From Aquila chrysaetos chrysaetos (Eukaryota; Chordata; Aves; Accipitriformes; Accipitridae), in the NCBI RefSeq assembly GCF_900496995.4, contig NC_044012.1, positions 4,278,001-4,342,000 of the forward strand: a stretch of 64,000 bases of DNA, given 5' to 3'. Below, piece by piece: positions 1 through 58,749 of the stretch; positions within the stretch are counted from its first letter, which is position 1, and each line of letters starts with the position of its first letter. Position numbers and translations under genes: made by a program. The notes beneath the pieces were generated by a model. That model was given only the letters and a program-made list of their open reading frames with translations, searched no databases and was not told the origin of the DNA.

Positions 1-1332
1 GCTTGCCCCTTGCTGTCTCGGTAAGCCAAAGTTCTCAACAGCAATACTTTCCCACCCACCTCTCCCAGAGGAATGCAGCTTCCAACAACTGTGTATTACA
101 GAACATTAGGGATCAGGAAGCACCATTGTTGTTCATTTTATTGACAGCTTAGCACGAATAATAATGATTTTTTCTATAAATCAAGCAACTCTTTTGTTGC
201 ACTGGTGGTCAGAGTTTGACACAACTTGAAAAGGCTGACACGTCAGATTGCTGCAAAGTTTGAAGAGGTATTCAGCAAACCGCTGATAAACAAAATGCTG
301 TGAAAAGTGTTTACATGTATTTTAAAGAAAACTGTTGGCAGATTCAACATTTATTTTAACTTGAATGCACAGTATAAAGCATATTTCAAGTTCTTGTCAC
401 TGACTTATCAGCTGTAGGATCCATCTTCTAAGAGAACAGCAAGATCAGTTTGACATATCATGTTCTACCTAAAATCCCGTACTACAAGGGATTGTCACTT
501 TCACATAACTCTGAGTGCTGCCAACCTTTAATTATTTTCAAAAGAGAATAACAATCAGAGTTCTGGATGCAAAACCTGAAATCAAATTATTCCAGGTTAT
601 AAGCAATGCCTCTTTATTCTTTTCTTGTGTTTCCATGACAGTCTGTAAATCTAATCCAAAGCAGATGCATGTTCAAGTCTCAGCTTTTGGCACTCTCTTT
701 CTAAATGTAGAAACAATGTACTATTGACATATTGATGGAAAAGGTTATATCCAGTTCTTGACTAGGCAGTAATGTCACATTCTTCAAAAGAACAATGAAA
801 TAGATAAATGTTCATTTAGCATAATTTTTAAATAATGTCAATTTTTTATATGAGAAAGATGGTGAATTTAGAGCCAATCTCCTAATACAATTCTACATCA
901 CGGTTGCCTTTTATACTTAAGTATTACATTTTCAGCAGCACCTTCACCCAAGTTCTCTATTGGAAATATCAGTGGCATTCAGGACTGACAAACAGGTAAA
1001 AGAGAACAATTATAGATACTGTTCTTGGTAACATAAGACACAAACAGAGAGCAACTGATATGCCTCCTACACAATACTTAAGATTTTCAAAGGTGGCTGA
1101 GGTTCTGGACATTTTAAAGAGATTTTCAGTATTTAAGGGACCTTTGACAGCTATCAACAAAAAAATCTGGAAGTTTAGCACTCAGCTCATGCAGAAAATT
1201 ATGAAAATGGTCTAAAATAGCCTTTGAAATGTCCAAATATCTTCAGTAGCTCTGGACAATATTTAGTATCGTGCTGTATGACAGAGAAATGCCACATATT
1301 AAGTAGATCTCTCATATACTTCTATTAAATAT

Positions 1333-1373
1333 TCTCCTGCACTGGAAGAAACTTCCCATCCAAGTGCAGGAGA
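1333..1373. repeat. Short inverted repeat forming a nested hairpin
   Basis: The 11-base arm TCTCCTGCACT (1333-1343) is perfectly complementary to 1363-1373. Inside it, GGAAG (1344-1348) pairs with CTTCC (1352-1356) around an AAA loop, and 1357-1362 is left as a bulge. The total is 16 base pairs in 41 bases. Pairing outside the outer arm is weak, so the stem is short for a typical microRNA precursor. The function is unknown. Confidence 0.6.
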
Positions 1374-4300
1374 TTGGCCAGGAATGGCAGTAGCACAAAT
1401 ATCGCAGCTCCTAGGAAGACTTATCCAGGGGAGAGTGAAGCTTTAAAACATTTGCAATTCATACCTGAATGATCTCTTACTTTCCCTCTGGGCTCCCTCT
1501 GCAGTCATGTTCTGCTGAGAGTCCCAATTAAACAGATGCAGCTGCTAAAATTAGTTATCTTAAGAGCGATGCATCGGTTCCTGCCTCTCCTTGGGATCAA
1601 AGGCACCTCAGTGGGAGCGACTCTCTGACAGCTGGAAAGGTCACCTAGGAAGTTCCTGCTCATCTGCTCTGGGGTCAGATCCTTCCCGTGGCAAGGTCTG
1701 GACCCAGCAGTTGGTAGCAGGCACTTTTTACCTTCAAGGAAGTTCTGACATGGATGCAGTGATCTGCTAAGAAATTGGTAGCAGCAGGACCGGGGTCTTA
1801 GGTCTGCATAGTACATCCCCTTCAGTTGGGCTATGCAGGAAAATGTAAGAACCAACTTTGACTTCCTGAATTAATTAATTTTAATATTTCTTGTCAGTCT
1901 TGCAGCACACAACCGTCTATCCTTTGAGACTGAAGCTCAGCATAGATTGACAAGCCATAGATAGTGGTAATCTGCAGGAGAAAAATGTTAAGACTACTTA
2001 TCTGAACTAAAGTACATGAAACATTCATCTCAACAGGATTAGGCAAATTACAACAAGTTTAAAAGTCCCTGTTCCTTTTATCTCTGTTTTGGTTTGCTCT
2101 CCATCTCCTACGTATCCCACTTATGGTACTTGACTTGCCTTTTACCTCTTCTCAAGAAACAGGAACCAAATCAGTGTTCAGTGAACCCACGGGAGCCCTC
2201 TTACTGCTTCGTAGTTTCAAGTGAGGTCCATGTGTTAAGCATCATTGCATAAACATGTGAGAGTGTGAGCTAGCTTTAAACTCAGGATACTCCAGGCTAA
2301 GGGCTAGTATGGAATGTTTATTAATCAGATCATATATTCACTTACTAGTTTGTTCTGTTTCCACAAGTTCCTCTACCAGTCCCCTAAAATTAGAGTAACC
2401 ATTCCTCAGTAATGAATAAAGTTTCTAGAGTTTCAGATCTCACAGTAAAAAATTAACTGTTATCAGTGTTACAATATTTAGCATCTGCTGCAAGTCACTC
2501 ATGGCTAGTTATCAGCTCTTCTGTGGCTCCCTAATGATTTTCTTAGAGAGGGAGAGGCAAGGACGAACTACATTCGATCCACAGTGAGGTGATTTAGCTC
2601 ATGCTGGCAGGCAGATCTGGCAAATGTTTCTCTTGAGTGACATTTCTGATGGACATTGCTGCAGTGACACTTGCCAGAGCAGCATCTGTAAAAGAGTAAG
2701 GGATGAGCACATCTATACCCATGTTCTGTGCAGGCAAGCTGAAAAAAAGCTGTAAGGAAGAACTTAGCAGACGTTACTGTTTGCAAACAGCCACTTTGGA
2801 GGATTAATAGCTTCTGTAGCCTGAATAAAATGGCAGAGTTGGGTTTTTTCCCACTGGAAAATAACTTTCCTAACAGACCCAAAATCAGAAGGTAGAAGAT
2901 CTATTCAATTTTACATGCATCATTCTAATTTCAGTGAATGTTCCACTTTGAAATCAAAGGTATGAACAGCATCATTTTCAGGGTATTTTGGCCAAAATGC
3001 ATCTGCGTATATTTGATAGGTAGGGCCTAGAGTCCTTCCACACAAAACATATCTCAAAAACCACAGTCAGAAATATTTATTCACATTCACAGGTATGTAT
3101 TCCCAAAATACTGTATGTGCAGTGATTTGTGGAAAATTCAAGGAAATATCCATCATATCCTCAGCTGATGTAAACCAGCATTCCTCCACTGCAATAAACA
3201 AAACCAACTTCTAACAGATTCAGCTAATAATTTCTTAAATGAACTGTATGAGATTGCCTCTATGCAGCTCATTTCTAAGGGACCAGAAAGATGAAACAAT
3301 GATGTCTCATTTTTAACAGGCTACAAAATGAACCTGAAGCACCTATCAAAATTACTAAACAGTGATTACTTACAACTCAGCAGCTGACCTCATTCTGTGA
3401 TTCAGGTATGGTTACTTGCCTGCTTAGTTACTTAAATTTTCATTGAATAATCATTTTGTTTGACACTGACCATCATATTTTATTATTCTAGGCTCACCAT
3501 TCACTTGAATAAAGAAGCTGAAAAATTGACTATTAATGTCAAGACTTCTGGGGTGATGTAACAAAGCGTTTTGTTAACTAAACACACATCAAGACTTAGA
3601 GTTATGGTCACAATTCTTAGTTTTCCTGAGACAACTGGAAATCAAAAGAATGCAGAATCTGGAGAATTTTATGATCTTTTTACTAAACATAAATTAGACA
3701 TGAAAAATCATTTTCTACATACTCATTTACAGTTACCTGAAAATTCAGCCTTGAAAATAGGGATAATTCTTTCAGAGACATACTAATTGTTCTTTCTCAA
3801 ATCAGCTTGTTTCCCCATATATAAAACTGTTCCTTGGTGGACAGTTTTTTACTCTGAAAACATTGCTGATTTGTAATCTACTTTTGTATCTCTATACAGT
3901 TCAATGCCGTAAGAAGTTTTTCTGTTTACATCCAAAGTTGTAGTGACTGGTTGGGATCTTAAAACATAGTAGGACAACTATCCATCAGGAACACCTAGCA
4001 TAGCCTGGAGAAGAGAAAAATATCATGGGCAAAACCAGTAACACATCCCTCCCCCCAAAACCAAACGCAATCTTACACAACTAGTAGCTTTTAGAGTAGG
4101 TCTGACCAGTGAGAGAAATCCAACCAATACACCATATCCACATGGAAGGAAATGGTAAAGTTGGAGGATGCCTTGTCCAGTGCTCCCATTTAGCTAGGTA
4201 ATTGGGGTCCAAAATTATCATCATTTCCACTAATATCTTGTATCTTTGGCATGAGAAAGGCTGAACTACTGTTTATGACTGTTACCCAGGGTGAGGTACA

Positions 4301-21988: not shown

Positions 21989-22300
21989 GTAAGATTACAT
22001 GCGGGGGGAAAGGTGTTTCAACGCCTTCCCATCCCACACGGCTGTGCCAGCGCTCCGTTTATACGAGACTTTGCCTCCTACGCTGAGTTAGCATACGCAG
22101 GGGAGGCCCACGAGGTCCTCACACCTCACACCCCGCTGCCAGCGGGGACCAACGACGGCCGTGATGGCGGTGGAGGGGGAACAGGCCGGAGGCCGGCCCG
22201 GCAGCCCCAGGGGACGAGCGGGCTGCCGCACCCGGCCGAGGGACGCCCTCCCTGCCACGACGGCGGGTGCTGGGGGGAGCGGGCAGCCCGGTGACGGGGC

Positions 22301-22321
22301 TTTCCGTGGGTTTTCCGTGGG
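22301..22321 (+). repeat. Two tandem copies of an 11-base unit
   Basis: TTTCCGTGGG is repeated at 22301-22310 and 22312-22321 and is followed by a partial third unit (TTTTCCCG). It sits in the CpG island roughly 200 bases upstream of the HSBP1 start codon. It may be a duplicated factor site or a replication-slippage product. Confidence 0.5.
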
Positions 22322-22390
22322 TTTTCCCGCCCGTCGCCCGGCGTTGCCCCGTCCCGACCCTCTCCCCTCAGGCGCCGGGGTGGGGGGCGG

Positions 22391-22476
22391 ACTACATTTC
22401 CCAGAATGCTCCGGGGGGAGCCCGCCTCTTCTCGCGAGGAAGCGGCGGCGGAAGTGGCGAGGCGCGGCCCGGAAGC
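22391..22476 (+). promoter_or_regulatory. HSBP1 core promoter: ZNF143-like, CTCGCGAG and ETS sites
   Basis: ACTACATTTCCCAGAATGC (22391-22409) closely matches the long ZNF143/STAF element of the ACTACAATTCCCAGAATGC type. It is followed by the palindrome CTCGCGAG (22431-22438), core of the TCTCGCGAGA element bound by BANP. Then come ETS-type sites CGGAAGTG (22449-22456) and CCGGAAGC (22469-22476). No TATA box is seen. This order is typical of constitutive CpG-island promoters, and transcription probably starts around the ETS sites, 40-90 bases before the ATG. No clear heat-shock element was noticed, so heat induction is not suggested. Factor assignments come from known motifs, not from binding data. 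Confidence 0.75.
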
Positions 22477-22516
22477 GCCGCTGCCGTGGAGACGGGAACC
22501 GGGACCTGAACCCACC

Positions 22517-23645
22517 ATGGCCGAGACCGACCCGAAGACCGTGCAGGATCTCACTGCCGTGGTGAGGCCGCCGGGACCGGGACAACGGCCTCGGGGGGGG
22601 GGGGGGGGGAAGCGGGGCCGCAGAGCCGCTTCCCTGAGGAGAGGCCCCGGCGGGAAGGGGTAGAAGCCTCCGGCCTCGCCCCGTTGGCGGGCCCTGGCGT
22701 TACCTCCCGGGGCCCGGCGGGGCCGAGCTTGGGTAACCCGCGTCTGCCTGCTCTTGGAGGGGCTGCTGGGCTTGCGGTGTTGCCTGGGCCTTTTCCCCGG
22801 GTCGTCGTATAAACCGCCTCCGCTGTAGAGTTGTTTCTGCCGAGTCCCTGAGGGACAAGGAGGAGTCCTTTGGGCAAGGAGGAGTTATCTGTGTCCGGGA
22901 GGGATATGCTGAAGAGCAAGGGTTCGGGAGTGTGGAGAGGAAGGCTGTTATTCTGATGGGGAAAGTGTCACGGTGTGATTAACGTAGGACGCTGGAAGGC
23001 GCTGTTGTGGGTTTAGTCCTGGTTGTGCAACGCAGGCGTTTTCTAGATCTTAAAATTGTTTACTGTGAGCTTCGGTTCTTCTGTGTGTACATTCACATAG
23101 ATGTGAAAATATGATACTTAAATATGGAATTATAGTGCAGAGTTTGTGCACGGTTGAGCTCGGCAGTGAAAGAAAACATTGTAATTACCTCATTACATGA
23201 GACTAAATACTGTAACAGCCTCTTTAATGAAAACAAAACAGACTTCTTTTTTTCCTTTCTATTAGGTGCAGACATTGCTTCAGCAAATGCAGGACAAATT
23301 TCAGACCATGTCTGACCAAATAATTGGAAGAAATATCCTTTCTTAAGGGCAGATAGGTGCTATACACTACAGAATCATAAGTATTTAAAAGTATATTTAT
23401 CAGTGGGATTTGTAAGATAAATTTAAAGTGACCAGAAGAGTTTGAGCAAAGCTGTAATAATAAGCAAACAAACAAAAAATCCCAACCACTACTAGATTGC
23501 AGTCATAGTCCTTAACTCCAGTGAACTTGATGACATGAGCTGTCGCATAGATGACCTGGAGAAGAACATAGCAGACCTCATGACACAAGCAGGAGTGGAA
23601 GAATTGGAAGGCGAGAACAAGACCCCTGCTACTAACAAGAGTTAA
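22517..23645 (+). CDS. HSBP1: Heat shock factor binding protein 1, three coding exons
   Basis: Coding exons are 22517-22561, 23266-23332 and 23527-23645 (stop TAA 23643-23645). They total 231 bases and 76 residues, the same length as human HSBP1 and nearly identical to it. The start has a strong Kozak context (CCCACCATGG) and gives [12 protein letters not shown]. The protein is one amphipathic helix. Core positions V16, L20, M23, F27, M30, I34, I38, M41, I45, L48, I52 and L55 form a coiled coil, with a 4-4 stutter at 30-34-38 and a heptad duplication RIDDM/RIDDL (37-41, 44-48). An acidic polar tail follows from about residue 60. In other animals HSBP1 forms trimers, binds the HSF1 trimerisation region to damp the heat-shock response, and assists WASH complex assembly. 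Residue 43 is Cys, where human has Ser. Exon 2 splits the I38 codon after one base, at a minor-class intron. This frame is certain enough to define all coding junctions. Confidence 0.97.
22562..23265 (+). other. HSBP1 intron 1, major-class GT-AG
   Basis: This 704-base, phase 0 intron lies between V15 and V16. The donor is GTG|GTGAGG, and the acceptor is a T-rich tract ending TTTCTATTAG|GTG. Both codons at the junction are GTG, so the cut site was fixed by the two adjacent valines of the HSBP1 family. The first quarter is GC-rich (CpG island) and includes a run of 17 G; the rest is AT-rich. Confidence 0.93.
22593..22609 (+). repeat. Run of 17 G in intron 1
   Basis: An uninterrupted G17 tract begins 32 bases after the exon 1 donor site. 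Long G runs near a transcription start can form G-quadruplexes in DNA and pre-mRNA and are error-prone in sequencing, so the exact length is uncertain. Confidence 0.85.
23333..23526 (+). other. HSBP1 intron 2, U12-type AT-AC intron
   Basis: This 194-base, phase 1 intron starts with ATATCCTTT (23333-23341), matching all nine positions of the U12-type AT-AC donor. TCCTTAAC (23509-23516) is a perfect U12 branch site, with its adenosines 11-12 bases from the end. The intron ends GTGAAC, so the terminal dinucleotides are AT and AC. No GT donor lies at the exon 2 end that would keep the frame. A CAG at 23518-23520 could serve as an AG acceptor, but it would make the frame hit TGA after five codons, whereas the AC end restores I38-D39-D40. 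Removal therefore needs the minor spliceosome (U11, U12, U4atac, U6atac), which tends to make splicing a slow, regulated step. Confidence 0.95.
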
Positions 23646-23768
23646 AGTGAGACAATTGCTTGCTAGCCTTGAAACAAATCCTCAGGTCACTTGAAAATAC
23701 CGACTTTAAAGTAAATGGACTTTTTCCTTTGATTTGTGAGGTGGTCTGAAATTCATGCAGAGCAGAAC

Positions 23769-23790
23769 TATATATATATATATATATATA
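23769..23790. repeat. (TA)11 microsatellite
   Basis: There are eleven perfect TA units just downstream of the HSBP1 stop codon, followed by degenerate TATA-rich sequence to about 23823. It lies in the probable 3' UTR intron and is likely length-polymorphic. Confidence 0.9.
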
Positions 23791-24318
23791 GTATTGTACT
23801 GTCTCTATATAGAATTATATATGGTGTTATAATACAAGAAGCCTTAAGAAGCTCTTCTCTGCAGGCTCCTACTAGCCTCTTCAGCAAGGATGTTTTCCTC
23901 ATCAGTATTGGGAAGAAAGTGATTTTCTTCATGTCTAGGTAGCTTTGAGGAAGTGCAATAGCTGTATTCATCCTCTGGTTCTCTGAGTGTGATCTGAAAT
24001 AATGACTGTCTTTGCAGCATGGGAAGGAGAAGAGATGGGAAAAAATACCAGCAGCAAACGGAGCTGTTCTCTTTTTTTTTCCCATCATATTTGAGTGTTC
24101 TGAAAAGGAGCGTAATCTCATGTACGTTACCAAAATCAGCTCCGATTTCCATAGCTGGCAAGTTAGTGTGAGCATGGTGCTACTCTTCCATCTTCTGCTG
24201 CATCCTCTAGACTTCAGCTCCCACTAAGCTCCTAAAGATTGTAGACTTGCTGCTGTGCACAGGGGCTAATGAGTGAGCTACTGTAAATTCCTCCTGTGTA
24301 AGTTAGGAGCTTGCTGGG

Positions 24319-24337
24319 AGTACGTGACTCACGTACT
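24319..24337. promoter_or_regulatory. 19-base palindrome centred on an AP-1 site
   Basis: AGTACGTGA and TCACGTACT are perfect reverse complements around a single C. The centre is TGACTCA (24325-24331), the consensus AP-1 (FOS/JUN) site, flanked on both sides by ACG/CGT. A perfect 9-base-arm palindrome around a consensus site is unlikely by chance. It lies in the probable third intron of HSBP1, so it could be an intronic stress-responsive element. That function is inferred. Confidence 0.5.
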
Positions 24338-25123
24338 ACTGCAAAGCAGCAGGTCCTGACTCGACAGTGTAAGACAACACTCAGACGTGAGGCAGGGCGT
24401 ATTCTAGGGCACTGCTCCCTGGAAAAAGAAATTTCTTATTGAAAGGTTAAATGTGATATATATTCTTCTTATGTAATTTCTTAATTGATAACCTGCCCCT
24501 ATATTATACAAAAAAAATGGAGAAGTAGATGTTTCATCTACGTGGCAAGCAGCAGTTCAAAATCTAGTACAAAAACGTGTAAATAAATTCAAGTGATCAG
24601 GTAGGACCACACAGCGTTTACAACAATTGCTAAAGGCATTTCAGAAGATGCGGGCAATGCAAGAGTGCCAAAACCGTTACAGCATAAACAAGGTGTGTGT
24701 CTAGTGCTTAAGTATGATATATGAGCACTAAGATTTCACTTCAGTTTGTATAGAGCTTGATTTTTGTAATCCATGGAAGGCAACTGGTAAGTAAAGTACT
24801 GGATGTATCACATTAGATTAACTTTTTTTTTCTCAGGTGGCTAAGTAAGACATGTCTCAGCCTCTCTTAGGCTTGAAATTCTGAGATCACATCTAGAATG
24901 CTATGCAGCCTGTATAATAGGCATGTGTGTTTGAAACAGGTATACGTTTTGCTTGTTACCTATTTTTTGTGATACTTTGACAGAAATACAAATTATTATG
25001 GGTGTCATTGCCCCCTGTGCCAGTTCCCTTAGCCTGAACCTCACAAATGAAAATTTCTGATGAGTATGATTCTCTTAATTCTTCTCAGTAACATTTTTTA
25101 TTCTTATTATTTTTCCCCAACAG

Positions 25124-25390
25124 ATTGCCAATAGCTTAAGATGAATCCTGGAAGACTTCTTTTTTTTTTTTTTTTCCTACAAGTCCTTGGAATTACAGAA
25201 CAGCTTTTTGCAACTACTGTGTGTAAAAGCATTTTTATATTGTTACAGAGCTTGCATTCCTAATGTATATTGTATAGTTAGGGATAGATTAGTTTATATT
25301 TTGATTTGTGTACTGTAATTTCACTTTTTGAATTCTTGTTATGAGGATCAATTAGTTGTGTTATTAAAACACTGATCTTATGGTTCTCAA
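25124..25390 (+). other. HSBP1 last exon, 3' UTR
   Basis: It begins at the acceptor CAG|ATTGCC (25124) and runs through a T-rich stretch to the poly(A) signal ATTAAA at 25363-25368, with a GT- and T-rich downstream element (TGGGTGTATTTTTTTG). No coding frame is seen. The exact end is estimated, 15-25 bases after the signal. Confidence 0.6.
25363..25368 (+). terminator. Proximal poly(A) signal ATTAAA of HSBP1
   Basis: This is the common ATTAAA variant, with A-rich sequence just after it and a GT/T-rich element about 30-45 bases downstream. It is the first good poly(A) site after the spliced last exon. Confidence 0.6.
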
Positions 25391-49473: not shown

Positions 49474-51399
49474 TTTGCTTTTTGTTTTTTTTTTAAAAGA
49501 ATAACCTTGTACCTCAGTCCTGGGCTGGAAGAAAAAGACTTCACCAAAAATAAATTAAGACCAGACCAGCAGGCTCAGAAACCTCTATTCCCTAAACTGA
49601 GAGTCAATTAGTTATAATCAATTAAATAAAATTAAGGAAAACAAAGTCACATGGGCCTGGGAAAGGAAAAATGATAAATGAACTACCATTGTAGTCACTT
49701 GGGGGAAAAAAATGTCACCATCAAGGAGAAAAAAAATGGAAGCAATTAAAAAAGTTAAAGACTTTCCTTATTGCAGGGAGACAAGGGAATGTGCCAACCC
49801 CCAAAGGTTTTCATCAAGACTTTTCAATTCATTTCATTTTTGTCTCTTTGCTGGCAGTTTCTGGTGGGCTGTGGGAAGTACTTAAGCCATGGGGCCCAGA
49901 GCCTTGCAGAGTGGCCTACTTTGCAAACCCAAGCGTAGCTGCCATCACTTGTGCTAACACAGGCCAGATGCTTACAGCTGACTTCAGCCCAAATGTTTTG
50001 TCCCCATTACATTTTAAGAACCCCCTCCATGGGCAAAGAACAATCCTAGAGTCTACGCAACTGTCAACTTGAGAATATGGATATTAACTGCCGAGGAAAT
50101 GACTAATTAGACTCTATGACTGCTCTACTAGCTGCATTTAGCAGACTCCAGATATGACCCAGAGAGAAAATCTTTTAGATTAATCATGCAGATTACAGTA
50201 AAAACAAACTCAGAAAAGTCCAAACTGCCCAGGACATAGAGCATCTTCTTGATGATACCTTTGAAGCCTGCACTGTCTGGATTTGAGTCCAGACAAATCT
50301 GACAAGTCTAGTATTAATACATCTCACTTTTAACGTAGATGGAGCTTCCATGACACACTGCCAACAAGAATGTCAATGAATAGCAGCCTTGGTGGTAGGT
50401 TTCAAAATCAATATAATCAGCACAGTGTTCTATTCACAGCTTATAAATTGCTGTCACAGTGGCTAACTTCACAGTCTGATCAGTTTCAGAAGCCTTGTTA
50501 AAACTGTCTATGAAGTTTGCTGGACACAGTTTTGTCAAAAGGTATTCTGCCTGCAGCTTAACACAGGCACACTATTCAGTCTCTGCCCAGAAAGTCCCCA
50601 CATGGCAATAGCAGAGAGGCCACAGAAAAGAAAGAAAACATGCTGACAAAATTTCAAGAGATAAGGTAGAAACTGAAGTGGTGTATTTGGAAACATAAGT
50701 TGTTTCCCCTACCCCCCAGAGAGGCATTCTTAAAGGCCGTGAATTTGGGAATCTTCAAACCGAAGCAAAAGGTAGAAAAATAAAGCAAATATTATGTAGT
50801 GTTTTCTACTTCACCAGTTCACATTAACACCACAGACTTCCAGACACCTAAAGGCACATGAAGGCTGAAACAGGCTATTTTTTCCACCACAGGACAATCC
50901 TACACTGCCCACAAGGCATATATCCTTTCAACGCAAATTCACATCATTATCAACCAACTAATTTAGTCTTTCACCTGTCAGGTAATTAGGTGAAGATCTC
51001 ACCACCCACTTTCAGTAAGCTCAAATATTACTTCAGGATTCCTGTGCTATGCATCTTGGATCTGAATTTCACAGTATTTCCTAATCTTTCAGTCACTACT
51101 CCAGAAGTATCTCATTTTTCAAACAATTTGAATAAATCAATTCTTGGCATAGCTCACTTGATTTCAGTTGAGTTATACCTTTCAGTTTCAAACTTGTCAA
51201 CATATTCTTAAAGTTTTGAAGAATAAAGTGCAGTTCTTTCCACAGACAATCCCTTAAGGCCATTATGTTTCATCATGACCCTTAGTGGTGAAATGTCATT
51301 TATTAAAATATTTTTCCTCTATTGTATGCTTTATCCTGCTGCTGTTAAGATCTTCAGAAATCAAACCACCACCAAAATAAGGTGGAAAAGTACTATTGC

Positions 51400-57670: not shown

Positions 57671-58749
57671 ATGTTCGGGTTTTTTGTTGTTCTTGTTGGT
57701 TTTTGTTTGGTTGGGTTTTTTAGCATCATTTATTTAGGGTTATCTGCTTGTCCTCAAACTAAGCCAGGAACATTCTACGTTGAAGTTACCAACCTTTTCT
57801 TGATAATGATCCAGGACAAATTCCTGCACAGCTTTTTCATTTGCTTCCTTCATTTCCTTAAAGAAAAAAAAGGGGCATCTTTAACACAACTGAAGCCAGT
57901 CCATAGCTGGCTGTTCTATGTGTTCTAATGTCTAGGAGACTCAGAATCAAGGCACATCATGTTAACAAAACCTCATGAGAGAATCATTAGCCCCAAGGAG
58001 CCTGCCATATCAGAGGAAAAACATGCAGAGGAGGGGGGAAGTGGACACACTACAGAAAGATATAACATGCTTGAAGGAGGAGAAAACAACACGATGCAAG
58101 AGCTTTAGGGTCCCTACAAGTATTTCTGGGAAATTCTTTTTTTGCTAGACAATCCATGAACAGTTTGTATCTATATTCCATCTTGTAAGAATTGCTTCAG
58201 TCTTAAAGCACCAGAAATGTTTCACACCATTTCCTCTGCAGGGACTTTCTGTCATGTCACTACAGACTGAAAAGGAAAAGAGAGGCAAGTATGTGTTATG
58301 CAGAAACCATTACTTTAGGTAAAGTAGCAGTTCTATTTTAGTGTGAACCATTCATATTTTTCAAATAGAAGAAAAGATGTTTCCTTAAAAATAGGGCTCT
58401 TAAAAACAGATAGCTGACATACACTTTGGTTCAGTGTGTGACTTTTCTTGGCAAATAGAGATAATTTTTACCTTTTAGCTGAAGTATTTGGGGGTGGGGG
58501 GAAGGCAATGAAGTGTCCTTAACCCTGATAAATCTTTTAAGTAACAGTAGCATGAGCAGAGCTGCAGACAGACTTCAGCACAAAGACGAGGCCCACAACC
58601 AGAACAATTCTTGCTAAAGTACAATCTTTGATAATGACTATTAAGAACAAATAAAACAAACACAACAGGAAAGGTTAACACCTCCTTTGCTAGCATTTTC
58701 CTAAGGTTTATTCTTTTGTGCAAAATGCTTAAATCATGCTGAATGCTAT

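Follow-up and report, generated by a model that had tools for sequence, protein, structure and literature searches.

AT-AC introns are a rare kind of intron that is removed by the minor spliceosome, and the class has long been known. At a U12-type donor U11 binds first and U6atac after it, and the U12 branch-site consensus places a T directly before TCCTTAAC. U2-type AT-AC introns lack the extended, conserved donor and branch-site sequences of the U12 type. In one database, AT-AC introns constitute 18% of the U12-type introns of chicken (excerpt of PMC7367187), and chicken is reported to conserve 94% of the minor introns of human, a value attributed to an earlier paper (excerpt of PMC10639083). 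Taken together, these two excerpted values make an AT-AC intron in HSBP1 expected rather than surprising, and the second of them makes it likely that the orthologous intron is already held in intron databases. Within openly licensed PMC full texts, we found none that tied HSBP1 to the terms U12-type, minor intron or AT-AC; in the same texts, the sole co-occurrence of HSBP1 and minor spliceosome was one where the gene is listed among the symbols of a table, matches for HSBP1 with U12 were judged unrelated from their excerpts, and none combined "factor binding protein 1" with both minor spliceosome and heat shock. Excerpts of such texts retrieved with HSBP1L1 and splice site concerned an association with heat stress and alternative first or last exons, and intron class was absent from them.

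We identified intron 2 of an HSBP1 gene as, with a probability of about 0.97, an ancient minor-class, U12-type AT-AC intron that interrupts codon 38, judging from its sequence. It shares with the U12-type AT-AC (A-type minor) class its terminal dinucleotides, the ATATCCTT donor, TCCTTAAC, a spacing of 11-12 nt, phase 1 and a host genome that encodes the minor snRNAs, and is an ordinary member of this known class. The preliminary description had called the minor-spliceosome signals perfect; this holds for the donor and for TCCTTAAC, both of which are exact, but the base directly before TCCTTAAC is G where the consensus has T, and we noted no other difference of weight. With U2-type AT-AC introns the likeness is in the terminal dinucleotides, and the presence of both U12 signals sets HSBP1 intron 2 apart from them.

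The gene lies within a window of 64,000 nt (C9:4278001-4342000) of a 1.23 Gb assembly of 144 contigs, and its features are collected in the table below. The product has 76 residues and matches the Pfam family PF06825 with 104.1 bits, against a cut-off of 28.6. A run of 17 G is present in intron 1 soon after exon 1 (22593-22609), where the length of the assembly may be unreliable. Directly after the stop codon, 23647-25123 is probably an ordinary GT-AG intron (GTGAGA...CCCCAACAG), which contains a short AT repeat (23770-23790); if this intron is real, the stop codon ends one base before the last HSBP1 junction. Scans of the window for Rfam families (at the gathering cut-off) and for tRNAs gave no matches, and none of the 10 stop-to-stop frames searched against Pfam, out of 21 of at least 110 amino acids, reached a curated cut-off; 8 of the remaining 11 frames fall within 22088-24223, either inside HSBP1 or next to it.

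Table. Features of HSBP1 (positions in the window) and of its HSBP1L1-like paralogue L011 (contig C18 of the same assembly)
Feature	Position	Strand	Basis or remark
HSBP1 exon 1, coding segment starting at ATG, 45 nt	22517..22561	+	Frame; protein family; weak own-genome match (E 2.52, residues 1-17)
HSBP1 intron 1, ordinary GT-AG (GTGAGG...TTAG)	22562..23265	+	Read from sequence
HSBP1 exon 2, 67 nt, with a phase-1 end at AGA A	23266..23332	+	Frame; same length as L011 exon 2
HSBP1 intron 2, U12-type AT-AC, 194 nt, phase 1	23333..23526	+	Sequence, frame, snRNA pairing
U12-type 5' splice site ATATCCTTTC	23333..23342	+	Pairing with own-genome U6atac and U11
First in-frame stop (TAA) on retention of intron 2	23344..23346	+	Frame reading
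U12 branch site TCCTTAAC	23509..23516	+	Exact motif; pairing with own-genome U12
Decoy AG (CAG), downstream of the branch site and upstream of the AC	23520..23521	+	6-7 nt after branch-site adenines; early TGA if used
AC 3' splice site of intron 2	23525..23526	+	11-12 nt after branch-site adenines
HSBP1 exon 3, coding up to the stop TAA (23643-23645)	23527..23646	+	Frame; proposed 3' end 23646, from donor-like GTGAGACA (GTGAGA) next to it
HSBP1 candidate untranslated exon 4	25124..25160	+	Proposed start after CCCCAACAG; inferred from sequence
L011, paralogue with AT-AC U12-like intron	188-1596		Junction scan
L011 coding exon 1, 45 nt	188-232		Same length as HSBP1 exon 1
L011 exon 2, 67 nt	476-542		Same length as HSBP1 exon 2
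L011 intron 2, AT-AC, 959 nt, phase 1	543-1501		Starts ATATCCTCTTTC, ends TTATCTTTAACTTTTTAC

Within the coding sequence, intron 2 starts ATATCCTTTC and ends TCCTTAACTCCAGTGAAC (in a longer reading of the 3' end, AGTCCTTAACTCCAGTGAAC), flanked by ...GGAAGAA upstream and TTGATGACATGAGC downstream. We scanned all junctions with the last exon base in 23280-23419 and the first exon base in 23400-23599 that leave introns of at least 30 nt, and a single one, the AT-AC junction 23332|23527, restored the conserved peptide IIGRIDDMS, joining AGA A to TT GAT GAC at codon 38. This upholds the earlier argument that the frame proves the AC end, since within the scan the cut after AC is alone in yielding the Arg-Ile-Asp-Asp junction. 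The solved chain 3ci9_A, which we take to be human HSBP1, spans the same junction (match 2.1e-23).

The splicing signals lie where this junction places them. The donor ATATCCTTT is exact at 23333-23341, including the conserved ATATCCTT at 23333-23340, and from the two branch-site adenines it is 12 and 11 nt to the final base of the intron, as the preliminary description had held in placing the AC end at the right distance from the branch point. Either adenine can serve, with a best distance to the 3' splice site of 11-13 nt (excerpt of PMC3584512), a range within which both adenines of HSBP1 intron 2 fall. The description of 23333-23526 as the AT-AC, U12-type intron 2 of HSBP1 holds, its coordinates and motifs being exact and the frame, the paralogue and the genome's own snRNAs agreeing with it.

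For each of the four minor snRNAs, this genome contains one or more matches that exceed the Rfam cut-off, with the best matches of U12 (149.5 bits), U6atac (134.4 bits), U11 (110.7 bits) and U4atac (86.7 bits) covering the full models; no match to these families was found in any of 14 control genomes. The high-scoring U6atac copy is found at C24 only, and two weaker U6atac-like matches above the cut-off (L014 and L015, 39.9 and 35.5 bits) may be pseudogenes. CCDC84 was matched by three stretches of the genome, two of which hold one read-through stop, as expected where the frame runs into an intron; CCDC84 is CENATAC, a factor for A-type minor introns (excerpt of PMC8280824).

Bases +4 to +10 of the HSBP1 donor form seven contiguous Watson-Crick pairs with the own-genome U6atac, and bases +5 to +9 form five pairs with U11, plus one G-U at +4. 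TCCTTAAC and the next two bases form nine contiguous Watson-Crick pairs with U12, with one A bulged. In a control covering the U6atac and U12 pairing, random 12-mers from the window, in any register, reached the seven-pair run with U6atac 1-40 in 41 of 3000 cases and the nine-pair bulged run with U12 1-40 in 17 of 3000, and we therefore rejected snRNA pairing as a proof by itself. We propose that U11 and then U6atac would pair with ATATCCTTTC, in an order taken from established knowledge, that U12 would pair with TCCTTAAC and bulge one adenine as the branch nucleophile, and that the AC 11-12 nt downstream would be the 3' splice site used, so that AGA A is joined to TT GAT GAC. We infer both the actual splicing of the intron and its dependence on CENATAC.

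Counted over the whole genome, the U12 motifs by themselves do not exceed what chance would give. ATATCCTT has 55,288 matches in the genome against 51,954 for its reverse, and the strict trio of ATATCCTT, TCCTTAAC and AC, with a gap of 155-185 bases, occurs 8 times, including HSBP1 intron 2 (the flanks of the other 7 having been inspected by eye only), against 17 for the reversed control; we thus discarded such genome-wide counts as a sign of rarity. The motifs are decisive because their positions were fixed beforehand by the protein: the joint chance of both motifs and AC at the two protein-fixed places is about 1e-10, under a first-order Markov model with four branch offsets allowed. Elsewhere in the window we noted a second ATATCCTTT (50920-50928, +) and a second TCCTTAAC (58516-58523, +), which are 7.6 kb apart and which we read as chance.

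We compared the HSBP1 protein with the whole genome, scoring only first-look candidates, and obtained four matches: the three window exons, and a second gene on C18 (L011), presumably HSBP1L1-like, which is 53% identical over residues 38-69. None of the four is a spliced HSBP1 retrocopy recording the junction, although a short or diverged copy could escape this search. A junction scan of L011, for which the target LRMEEMGERIDD was picked with human HSBP1L1 in mind, found only one pair of ends that restored it, AT-AC in phase 1. Independent support for this junction comes from the resulting product, which can be aligned to HSBP1 through the junction without gaps (identity 45%) and scores 74.9 bits against Pfam HSBP1. 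Seven GT/GC-AG pairs also keep the downstream frame, and each of them adds residues absent from HSBP1.

The L011 intron starts ATATCCTC and ends TCTTTAACTTTTTAC in the shorter reading, contains the U12-like motifs ATATCC and TCTTTAAC, and resembles HSBP1 intron 2 in its codon position, its phase, its AT-AC ends and the lengths of the two upstream coding exons. It differs in its length (959 against 194 nt), in its weaker donor ATATCCTC and in its branch-to-end distance, with branch adenines 8-9 nt from the intron end, below the optimum given in the excerpt of PMC3584512. In the HSBP1 register, the pairing of its donor with U6atac covers +4 to +7 and is interrupted at +8, its best register being a shifted one with five pairs. 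Its branch region can still form an uninterrupted run of nine pairs with U12, of which two are G-U, leaving an A bulged, and pyrimidines make up 14 of the final 20 intron bases. The L011 signals are weaker than those of HSBP1. Since L011 has the same arrangement, the AT-AC intron most likely predates the duplication that gave rise to HSBP1 and the HSBP1L1-like gene.

Three other explanations were weighed. In the first, the intron has AT-AC ends and is nevertheless removed by the major spliceosome. Such U2-type introns exist, the CENATAC study having examined 85 major AT-AC introns or related subtypes (excerpt of PMC8280824), but here the donor and the branch site match the U12 signals exactly and are complementary to U6atac, U11 and U12 as encoded by this genome, a strong pyrimidine tract is absent (11 pyrimidines in the last 20 bases), and L011 keeps U12-like signals at the same place, all of which make this explanation very improbable. 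It is less probable still, to a degree that we consider negligible, that splicing uses the AG at 23520-23521, which would make this an AT-AG U12-type intron, or that the true junction is a GT/GC-AG pair. Minor introns with AT-AG ends exist (excerpt of PMC8280824), and a second scan found eight GT/GC-AG pairs that keep the downstream frame of HSBP1; none of the eight restores IIGRIDDMS, and the AG follows the branch adenines at only 6-7 nt and leads to ...GRMNLMT followed by TGA, bearing out the earlier remark that the nearby CAG gives an early stop. That the locus is a non-functional copy with relic signals is hardly credible, given a coding sequence intact over three exons (Pfam E 3.3e-30), a start within a G+C-rich stretch, and no second HSBP1 locus among the four genome matches apart from the more distant L011.

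Returning to the minor-class reading, retention of intron 2 would extend the frame by NILS to the TAA at 23344-23346. This stop precedes by 300 nt the proposed junction of exons 3 and 4 (23646|25124), itself placed by splice-site-like sequence; decay of the intron-retained form is for this reason plausible. Loss of CENATAC affects A-type (AT-AN) introns most, with 92% of A-type against 24% of G-type minor introns hit upon its depletion (excerpt of PMC8280824), and U6atac is limiting and stabilised by p38 under anisomycin treatment, in a study whose main text is without the words heat shock (PMC3728624). The sensitivity of A-type introns to CENATAC depletion and the limiting supply of U6atac together make HSBP1 a sensible test gene. 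The role of HSBP1 in the heat-shock response is itself putative: its over-expression did not inhibit this response in Xenopus (excerpt of PMC2854154).

A wider proposal, which we regard as unlikely as a whole, is that A-type minor splicing would be needed for the two HSBP paralogues alike, such that no HSBP copy would escape control by the minor spliceosome. Under stress, p38-stabilised U6atac would then raise HSBP1 mRNA and feed back on HSF1, autophagy or other functions of HSBP1, and loss of CENATAC or U12 would deplete both proteins together.

HSBP1 intron 2 clearly exemplifies an A-type minor intron in the gene of a 76-residue protein, and L011 suggests that the two copies have both retained this intron class since the duplication. 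The HSBP1 and HSBP1L1-like genes are thus predicted targets in disorders of the minor spliceosome, including the loss of CENATAC.
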